From contig NC_016751.1 in NCBI RefSeq assembly GCF_000255135.1, positions 1,984,001-2,048,000 on the forward strand: 64,000 nucleotides of DNA. Direction: 5' to 3'. Below, piece by piece: positions 15,721 to 41,748 of this stretch (the first letter of the stretch is position 1; every line of letters begins with the position of its first letter). A program made the position numbers and the translations under genes. This DNA is from Marinitoga piezophila KA3. GTDB lineage: Bacteria; Thermotogota; Thermotogae; Petrotogales; Petrotogaceae. The notes below the pieces were generated by a model, which saw only the letters and a list, made by a program, of their open reading frames with translations, had not been told where the DNA came from and ran no database searches.

Positions 15721-15748
15721 GCCAGCAATTTAGCTGGCTATTTTTTTA
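15720..15748. terminator. Terminator at the end of the ABC exporter operon
   Basis: AGCCAGC and GCTGGCT pair around AATTTA, followed by TATTTTTTT. The stop codon of the convergent methyltransferase (15738) lies inside the hairpin. On the minus strand the T tract is weak. Confidence 0.85.
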
Positions 15749-16439
15749 TTCCTTTAATAAGGATAAATTGTGGTTTTTTCATAAGTTTTTTATAATTCTT
15801 TTCATCCTGTTCCATGAATTTTTTTATGGGTTTTGGTTCAATAATTCTTTCAATAAATAAATTATTTTTAGCAAAAGCATTTATAATCATTTCAAGCGGT
15901 CTATGATAAAAAAATACAGGAATACCATTAATCCTATCTTCCAGCAAAACTTCTTCAAAATAATTTTCTATTTGAAAATAAAGGTAAGTCATCATAGGAT
16001 GATGTATAGAAATAACAATATGTCCATCTTTTTTCAAAACCCTTGATAATTCTCTAAAAACTTTATTTATATCCTTTACATAGTGTAGAGTAAGTGATGA
16101 GATTATTAAATCAAAATAACTATCTTCAAAAGGTAAATCTTCGTTTAAATTATGAAGAAATACTTTTCCGTTATCTTTAATCCTTCTTTTCGCAGCAGCA
16201 ACCATATTTTCTGAAAAATCAATCCCAACAACCTCTTTTGCACCTTTATTTATCATTAATTCCATATAATAACCTGCACCGCAACCGGCATCGAGAATCT
16301 TCAACCCATTCACATTACCAATTAATCTGGTCATAGCAGGTCTTTCATAATAAGCATTAAAACTTTTAGTATCTACATCCTTCTCATAATGATTTGCCAG
16401 TTTCTCATAAGAATTTTTTAATCTTCTATCTATATTCAT
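15738..16439 (-). CDS. Class I SAM-dependent methyltransferase
   Basis: This 233-residue protein starts at ATG behind GGAGGGAA. Motif I reads ILDAGCGAGYYMELM at about residues 48-62, followed by VVGIDFSENMV and the post-motif DLIISSLTLHYVKDI. This is a type 11 (UbiE/COQ5-like) small-molecule methyltransferase fold. The C-terminal part (GIPVFFYHRPLEMIINAF) gives no specific hint of substrate. It is a single gene. Upstream lies the repeat block at 16482-17160, so its promoter must lie within or next to that block. Confidence 0.85.
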   Translation of the reverse strand: MNIDRRLKNSYEKLANHYEKDVDTKSFNAYYERPAMTRLIGNVNGLKILDAGCGAGYYMELMINKGAKEVVGIDFSENMVAAAKRRIKDNGKVFLHNLNEDLPFEDSYFDLIISSLTLHYVKDINKVFRELSRVLKKDGHIVISIHHPMMTYLYFQIENYFEEVLLEDRINGIPVFFYHRPLEMIINAFAKNNLFIERIIEPKPIKKFMEQDEKNYKKLMKKPQFILIKGIKK

Positions 16440-16483: not shown

Positions 16484-16513
16484 GGCCGTTGCAGACTCAC
16501 GTCCATGTTCGTC
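16484..16513 (+). repeat. Mosaic module A, copy 1
   Basis: Thirty bases beginning GGCCGTTGCAGACTCACGTCC recur at 41439-41468 with one mismatch (A or T before TGTTCGTC). Confidence 0.9.
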
Positions 16514-16543
16514 CTTTCTGTTGTAGATTGAAAAAAATAAAAG
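16505..16543 (+). repeat. Left inverted end of block 1
   Basis: ATGTTCGTCCTTT followed by a GTTG-rich stretch, GATTGA and an A-rich AAAATAAAA tail reads as an imperfect reverse complement of 17115-17154, roughly 80 percent alike by eye. Confidence 0.7.
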
Positions 16544-16562
16544 TTCATTCATACGACTTGAG
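16540..16562 (+). repeat. Mosaic module B, copy 1
   Basis: Twenty-three bases (AAAGTTCATTCATACGACTT plus GAG) are identical to 41323-41345. In block 2 this module precedes module A; here it follows it. Confidence 0.9.
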
Positions 16563-16605
16563 CACTAATCCTCAAAAACTGCTCATATCCGCGGAGTCGC
16601 TCAGA

Positions 16606-16623
16606 TTCCCCATCCCTGGGGAA
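16606..16623. repeat. TCC-loop hairpin 1
   Basis: TTCCCCA and TGGGGAA pair around TCCC. The spacer GCTTCGCTC connects it to the next hairpin. Confidence 0.75.
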
Positions 16624-16632
16624 GCTTCGCTC

Positions 16633-16653
16633 AAAAAAACATCCTGTTTTTTT
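16633..16653. repeat. TCC-loop hairpin 2
   Basis: AAAAAAACA and TGTTTTTTT pair around TCC. It is flanked by CGCTC before and GACTC after, the same flanks as the other hairpins of this family. Confidence 0.75.
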
Positions 16654-16657
16654 GACT

Positions 16658-16711
16658 CTCTTCATTCGCAGTTTTTTTCGGGTGCTCTGCGAGTATTCAT
16701 TCACTTTTATT
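16658..16711 (+). repeat. Mosaic module C, copy 1
   Basis: It runs from CTCTTCATT through GCAGTTTTTTTCGGGTGCTC and a T-rich tail to CAATC. It matches 41573-41635 almost exactly. Here it comes before module D; in block 2 it comes after. Confidence 0.85.
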
Positions 16712-16737
16712 TTTTTCAATCATCATTGTTTCTCCTT

Positions 16738-16796
16738 GGGAATTTTCAAGTTTTCGCTCATATTATTATTTCTATTTTCTTTTACATCTCTTCATT
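16738..16796 (+). repeat. Mosaic module D, copy 1
   Basis: Fifty-nine bases starting GGGAATTTTCAAGTTTTCGC are identical to 41523-41581. Confidence 0.92.
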
Positions 16797-16798
16797 TA

Positions 16799-16870
16799 CT
16801 TTTATTTTTTCCAACTGTCCTATAATCTCCATTTCGGAAAATTCTTAGTCTTCGTTCATATTATTTTTCT
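16799..16870 (+). repeat. Mosaic module E, copy 1
   Basis: It begins CTTTTATTTTTTCCAACT and ends near ATTATTTTTCT. It is about 85 percent like 41676-41748 by eye. Confidence 0.75.
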
Positions 16871-16892
16871 ACTTTCATTTATATACTCGAAA

Positions 16893-17087
16893 GAAAACAT
16901 GAATAAAAAGGTGAATGAAGGCTTGAAATTTCCCGAACGGAGATATTGCGTGAGCCGTAAAAATCACATGGATGTGATTTTTAGCGAAGCAGCACAGGAG
17001 GTGATGTCTGAGCGGCGGCGGCAAGCAATATTGGAGTGAGGAATAAGAAATTTCACCGCCTGAATGAACCTTTTTATGAATGTTTTC
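16893..17087. repeat. Long inverted repeat within block 1
   Basis: Arms 16893-16932 and 17047-17087 are imperfect reverse complements (GAAAACATGAATAAAAAGGT against GAAAACATTCATAAAAAGGT, then a GAAATTTC match). Pairing continues inward (GATATTGCGTGAGCC against a region reading AATATTGCTTGCC on the other strand). The centre holds a perfect hairpin, AAAAATCACA/TGTGATTTTT around TGGA at 16959-16982, and a second unit, CACAGGAGGTG. Confidence 0.8.
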
Positions 17088-41345: not shown

Positions 41346-41438
41346 AGCTGATCTTAGAAAGTTTTATGAAAAATAGAAATAATAATAATCGCTCAAACAG
41401 GTAGAAAATTCTAATCCTCAAAAATTCTCGTTCCCGCC

Positions 41439-41468
41439 GGCCGTTGCAGACTCACGTCCTTGTTCGTC
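41439..41468 (+). repeat. Mosaic module A, copy 2
   Basis: It differs from 16484-16513 at a single base over 30. Confidence 0.9.
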
Positions 41469-41474
41469 TTCACT

Positions 41475-41498
41475 CAAAATCACATCCGTGTGATTTTG
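41475..41498. repeat. TCC-loop hairpin in block 2
   Basis: CAAAATCACA and TGTGATTTTG pair perfectly around TCCG. It is nearly the same as the hairpin at 16959-16982 read on the other strand. Confidence 0.8.
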
Positions 41499-41522
41499 TC
41501 CGGCTCCACTTCGAATTTTTTC

Positions 41523-41581
41523 GGGAATTTTCAAGTTTTCGCTCATATTATTATTTCTATTTTCTTTTACATCTCTTCATT
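41523..41581 (+). repeat. Mosaic module D, copy 2
   Basis: It is identical to 16738-16796 over 59 bases. Confidence 0.92.
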
Positions 41582-41635
41582 AGCAGTTTTTTTCGGGTGC
41601 TCTGCGAGTATTCATTCACTTTTATTTTTTCAATC
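41573..41635 (+). repeat. Mosaic module C, copy 2
   Basis: It matches 16658-16711 apart from one substitution next to GCAG and one base less in the T run. It overlaps the CTCTTCATT that also ends module D. Confidence 0.85.
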
Positions 41636-41675
41636 GTTTGTAATTTTACCTTGGACACTCTGCGAGCCTTCACTC

Positions 41676-41748
41676 GCTTTTATTTTTTCCAACTATCCTG
41701 TAATCCCCGCTGCGGGAAATTCTTAGTTTTCATTCACATTATTTTTCT
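41676..41748 (+). repeat. Mosaic module E, copy 2
   Basis: It is about 85 percent like 16799-16870 by eye, including CTTTTATTTTTTCCAACT and AAATTCTTAGT. Confidence 0.75.

Follow-up and report, generated by a model that had tools for sequence, protein, structure and literature searches.

Paired hairpins with CsrA-type loops in a Marinitoga genome as copies of the TwoAYGGAY RNA in dispersed structured repeats, and their possible role as a distributed CsrA decoy

The RNA-binding proteins CsrA and RsmE share a well-known high-affinity site, a CA(N)GGATG loop held in a stem, which has been defined by SELEX and by RsmE structures. Classical sponges of CsrA, a global post-transcriptional regulator, come from a small number of dedicated genes, sometimes a single one, each of which has many sites. 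The TwoAYGGAY RNA (RF01731) displays AYGGAY-type loops on two hairpins, set in a junction with an outer closing stem; Weinberg et al. (2010, PMC2864571) listed it from the human gut, gamma-Proteobacteria and Clostridiales. The family was already known to have tandem G.A pairs. RF01731 was subsequently matched to the CsrA-binding motif, and a sponge was proposed (Gardner and Eldai 2014, PMC4333381). Both the TwoAYGGAY family and the idea that it is a CsrA sponge are already published.

At the DNA level, three kinds of described elements are relevant. MITEs are short, non-coding and present in many copies, with inverted-repeat ends and target duplications. REP/BIME palindromes are dispersed and intergenic. 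IS1272/TnSha1 elements (IS1182-family; Furi et al. 2016, PMC4923244) target terminator hairpins without a fixed sequence; IS1272 removes part of the terminator stem and creates no duplication.

The window analysed here is a stretch of 64,000 nt from a two-contig genome with a total of 2,244,793 bases, of which 2,231,407 are in the larger contig (hereafter, the source genome). An earlier note on this window had described hairpins with a TCC loop, variable stems and fixed flanks, and had named as likely explanations a REP-like mobile palindrome and a protein-binding hairpin. All the hairpins that it claimed are located in the sequence, with a GGA loop on the strand opposite to the TCC (table 1), and so is the further unit that it had placed nearby (CACAGGAGGTG). 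The shared design reads stem-CA-(N)GGA-TG-stem. The window contains four CA(N)GGATG hairpins whose stem has 7 bp or more, compared with a mean of 0.08 and a maximum of 1 in 60 dinucleotide shuffles. These GGA hairpins are paired, and each pair sits in a junction whose long closing stems compensate. The fixed flanks are also real; they correspond to the stem that closes the two-hairpin junction and to the linker that joins its hairpins. Two partner hairpins beyond the list of the note, at 16494-16513 and 41449-41468 (both minus strand), share GACGAACANGGACGTGAGTC, an AYGGAY-type loop on a stem that includes a tandem G.A step.

Table 1. Coordinates of the two-hairpin elements and their GGA hairpins in the window
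Feature	Position	Strand	Sequence or remark
Inner long-hairpin element with TwoAYGGAY RNA	16529..16718	-	outermost stem of 16 bp
GGA hairpin 1 of inner element	16631..16655	-	TCAAAAAAACAGGATGTTTTTTTGA
GGA hairpin 2 of inner element	16606..16623	-	TTCCCCAGGGATGGGGAA
Remaining GGA hairpin of outer element	16494..16513	-	GACGAACATGGACGTGAGTC; tandem-GA stem
Second long-hairpin element	16893..17087	+	nearly fully paired; opposite strand to first
GGA hairpin 1 of second element	16958..16983	+	TAAAAATCACATGGATGTGATTTTTA
GGA hairpin 2 of second element	16993..17003	+	CACAGGAGGTG
Third two-hairpin RNA copy	41413..41521	-	R1 103 bits
GGA hairpin 1 of third copy	41475..41498	-	
GGA hairpin 2 of third copy	41449..41468	-	GACGAACAAGGACGTGAGTC

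The region 16494-16718 is a nest, in which an inner element replaces the first hairpin of an outer element. The inner element has tandem-GA internal loops and carries its two GGA hairpins at the apex (fold of -67.7 kcal/mol, z -6.7); the second element folds at -74.8 kcal/mol (z -9.4). More generally, the outer stem is interrupted by symmetric internal loops, e.g. GAAYGAAR opposite YTGARNGA, which may be read as two tandem G.A steps. Beside the third copy, at 41520-41700, these repeat stems recur in further partial copies.

It is near certain that the hairpins of the window are copies of the known RNA TwoAYGGAY within dispersed structured repeats. The match to RF01731 at 16553-16694 (minus strand) scores 43.4 bits, only 0.4 above the cut-off of 43, and the match at 16935-17039 (plus strand) scores 31.8 bits, below the cut-off. 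Genome-wide there are 16 RF01731 matches, 4 of them over the cut-off, and the unit at 41413-41521 is absent from these matches. Covariance model R1, which was built in this analysis, gives 102 bits at 16567-16677 and 75.1 bits at 16936-17044; the second and third units, being below the RF01731 cut-off or unmatched, are placed in the family by R1 only. The features that characterize TwoAYGGAY are all found: AYGGAY-type loops on two hairpins, a junction with an outer closing stem, and compensatory support for both the closing and the hairpin stems. Unlike the TwoAYGGAY RNA described in 2010, the copies studied here occur in Thermotogota, in tens of copies and within transposable elements. Other weak Rfam matches in the region (to miRNA families) lie far below the cut-off and were dismissed as chance.

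Two alignments were used to examine the structure. The first, which was not fitted to a model, contains 30 non-redundant copies from the source genome and four congeners, with a hand-drawn structure. In it, 92.4% of the cells pair, compared with 34-48% when one side is slid by 1-3 columns; both sides change in 20 of the 30 pairs, and the covariation score is reached by none of 500 shuffles. The second comprises 104 distinct copies and was fitted to R1. Nearly all of its stem positions are variable, and the GGA of the first loop is kept in 102 copies and that of the second loop in 91, with a spacing between the two motifs that is mostly 24-26 nt. The compensatory changes that the earlier note had asked for appear in both alignments, with the caution that the second was fitted to R1, and its description of varying stems and constant loops holds: CsrA-type loops are kept across copies whose stems compensate. 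GU pairs exceed AC mismatches only slightly (37 versus 30), so the strand test is indecisive and does not prove selection on an RNA strand over a DNA cruciform.

The genome scan for more copies proposed in the note returned 82 DNA matches and 32 covariance-model matches in the source genome. Across 103 Thermotogota genomes, R1 has matches in all seven genomes of the source genus, with 42, 5, 25, 1, 71 and 1 copies in the six congeners, and weak matches in five further genomes from two other families; those inspected in these other families form long palindromes, each with a pair of GGA hairpins, and number up to tens of copies. Beyond Thermotogota, only those pattern-scan matches that were confirmed by RF01731 were used, and matches in coding sequence (Streptomyces, Pseudomonas and others) were set aside as chance. 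RF01731 is matched 39 times at E 0.01 or better in Desulforamulus aquiferis Bs105, and 21 times in a Lachnospiraceae MAG. The Desulforamulus copies have lost the GGA of the second loop. In the family of this MAG, RF01731 is found in 54 of 348 genomes; about half of these carriers have at least seven scored candidates, and carriage of several copies is therefore common. Matches in Armatimonadota are weak (31-35 bits) and are not claimed. As a separate observation, Armatimonadota MAGs E14 (L123, L124, L160, L171, L175) show several CCNGGACATGGATGTCCNGG palindromes per genome, again with weak RF01731 matches.

A high copy number raises the question of whether the repeats are purely selfish; that is, whether their structure descends from an ancestral captured sRNA and now serves neither the host nor the element. 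The high copy number, nesting and partial copies would fit such an origin, as would the two congeners with single copies only, which indicate that a high copy number is dispensable. These single copies (L078 in G044 and L079 in G042) have the same flanking sequence and look like one inherited insertion. On the other hand, divergent copies show continued compensation in their stems and conservation of their loops, which speaks against this explanation; we consider it very improbable.

The evidence for mobility comes mostly from the congeners. In G043 and others, copies of ~187 bp start with TGTCCA and end with TGGACA, and flanking direct repeats of at least 8 bp are present in 20 of 24 TGTCCA-ended copies, compared with 2.9% when left flanks are set against mismatched right ones. 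The second end type (CAGACTGTTGACAA with its counterpart) is found in G039 and G041, with a similar form in D. aquiferis, and sits at intrinsic terminators (a flank hairpin of at least 6 bp in 17 of 18 cases). Its flanks share at least 9 bp in 11 of 18 cases (2.9% in cross pairs), and whole terminators of 19-28 bp are exactly duplicated around the element in the flanks of L098, L251, L280, L281 and L282. At L068, L059 and L290, the duplicated terminators have unchanged stems and differing loops, as if both had been kept functional. Copies in Lachnospiraceae have, by eye, long near-perfect inverted ends. We conclude with high confidence that the copies are mobile in the congeners, as elements with inverted-repeat ends.

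In the source genome, inverted-repeat ends and a target duplication are combined in one copy (L027), and most copies have inverted ends but are without TGTCCA ends or a clear target duplication. The copies of the window have long inverted ends; a clear target duplication was not found around them, and nesting and decay are seen there. Nesting recurs in the source genome, where 6 of 18 tandem-GA-stem hairpins follow a nested element that stands in place of hairpin 1. One locus (L030, G000:C2:824683-824794) is a chimera of two elements back to back in opposite orientation. A search of three genomes for an autonomous partner found exact TGTCCAAWWAGT ends paired at ~187 bp and none at transposon length.

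Of the REP-like mobile palindrome suggested in the note, the mobility is supported by the inverted-repeat ends and target duplications in the congeners and by the second end type at terminators; the REP likeness does not hold strictly. The elements share with REP/BIME palindromes a dispersed, intergenic distribution, but their units are much larger and have target duplications; at ~190-240 bp and with such duplications they are closer to MITEs. They resemble MITEs in being short, non-coding and numerous, with inverted-repeat ends and target duplications, and differ from them in carrying a conserved structured RNA and in having outer stems that compensate. Their use of terminator hairpins without a fixed sequence recalls IS1272/TnSha1, except that in Marinitoga and Desulforamulus the elements frequently leave a duplicate of the entire terminator.

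The loops point to a particular protein. The source genome has a single csrA of 85 codons, adjoining a gene that we take, from its sequence, to be that of FliW. The latter (L025:1667-2647 (G000:C2)) encodes a 326-aa protein in which two FliW-like halves, with a repeated GIPGFENLKKF, can be seen by eye. The CsrA of the source genome can be aligned to CsrA and RsmE proteins of solved structure, and its L4, R6 and YREE positions, which have a role in RNA binding, are conserved. In the paired loops, the two GGA motifs lie 24-26 nt apart, close enough for one CsrA dimer given the generally known range of suitable spacings. Among Thermotogota, csrA is present in 12 of 12 genomes with R1 matches, and in 78 of 103 overall. 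One family of the source order (f2) is missing csrA in 17 of 17 genomes, none of which carries the element.

In the 348-genome Lachnospiraceae family, csrA is found in 52 of 54 RF01731 carriers and in 132 of 294 non-carriers, from a table compiled by reading two genome lists (odds ratio 32, p 5.5e-14, by a test that ignores ancestry). One of the carriers without csrA (G277) is a small genome that may be incomplete. Flagellin tracks csrA almost exactly in this family, and 53 of the 54 carriers have it; the two genes are almost collinear and not separable here, so the link may be to motility in general. Taken with the CsrA-type loops and the RF01731 match, the co-occurrence supports the second suggestion of the note, a protein-binding RNA hairpin, alongside the first. 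From these we infer that CsrA probably binds the two-hairpin RNA.

The same hairpins could act as DNA, e.g. as cruciform or single-strand transposition signals, in which case the resemblance to CsrA sites would be incidental. The transposition hallmarks are indeed clear, the palindromes are near-complete, the bias of GU over AC is not strong and the orientation to genes is mixed. However, structures for transposition do not need a CsrA-type loop, and here a strand-specific CA(N)GGATG loop is found in 102 of 104 copies, with a second GGA at a nearly fixed distance. Moreover, different phyla show similar loops with unrelated ends, and the co-occurrence with csrA adds to these points. We therefore regard a role at the DNA level only as unlikely.

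The reading that we favour, with moderate confidence, is that the hairpins are paired candidate CsrA-binding sites of a TwoAYGGAY-type RNA on MITE-like elements, which together form a distributed CsrA decoy. As DNA, the element would spread through intergenic regions via at least two end types, one making ~9 bp target duplications and the other inserting at intrinsic terminators and duplicating them. As RNA, a copy transcribed with GGA on the sense strand would form a long stem that encloses the two CA(N)GGATG hairpins. One CsrA dimer could then bind both GGA motifs of a copy, and the set of copies would together titrate CsrA. Several observations count against this reading: promoters at chance level, mixed orientation to neighbouring genes, GU pairs in no clear excess over AC mismatches, the lost second-loop GGA in Desulforamulus, and the many copies of the source genome that are without TGTCCA ends or a clear target duplication. 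Copies that lie between duplicated terminators may also be silent. We infer that the copies are transcribed, that they are bound by CsrA and that CsrA is thereby titrated; titration in the cell is held less firmly than binding. Such a decoy would resemble the CsrB and RsmYZ sponge sRNAs in its multiple GGA-loop hairpins matching the CsrA/RsmE site. It would differ from them in that each candidate decoy unit has two sites only, with as many as 71 units in one genome.

A broader proposal, which we put forward tentatively and would not yet favour, is that these repeats might represent a class of transposable elements with a CsrA decoy RNA as cargo. Transposition would then change the host's dose of CsrA-binding sites, and the RNA module would have been acquired by mobile elements with unrelated ends in Thermotogota, Desulforamulus and Lachnospiraceae. 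Insertion at terminators, with duplication, would supply each new copy with a ready terminator on either side.

In the papers searched, mostly outside subscription journals, TwoAYGGAY was not found as a mobile or multi-copy RNA or in Thermotogota. As far as these papers show, the transposable multi-copy spread, the presence in Thermotogota, the nesting and the csrA co-occurrence are new. CsrA-sponge RNAs outside gamma-Proteobacteria have been a published hypothesis since 2014, and the source genome, which offers csrA, fliW and some 30 candidate decoys together, allows a direct test. The csrA co-occurrence lends quantitative support to this hypothesis and, with the mobility of the copies, suggests that a global post-transcriptional regulator may be tunable by transposable elements bearing its binding site.

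The setting of the copies among genes bears on how they might be expressed. A promoter scan of the copies was at chance level, and their orientation to flanking genes has no fixed pattern (19 same/same, 13 opposite/opposite, 9 and 6 mixed, among those counted). These counts also bear on whether the copies are cis-acting, each regulating the adjacent gene via CsrA. Rfam types RF01731 as Cis-reg, and the gene at 15738-16439 starts ~55 nt downstream of the hairpin at 16494-16513, which speaks for this possibility. Given the mixed orientation of the neighbours, we find this explanation highly unlikely, and a reading as cis-regulatory leaders was rejected because the orientation is inconsistent. 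Short ORFs overlap 16 of 63 copies and are taken to be spurious.
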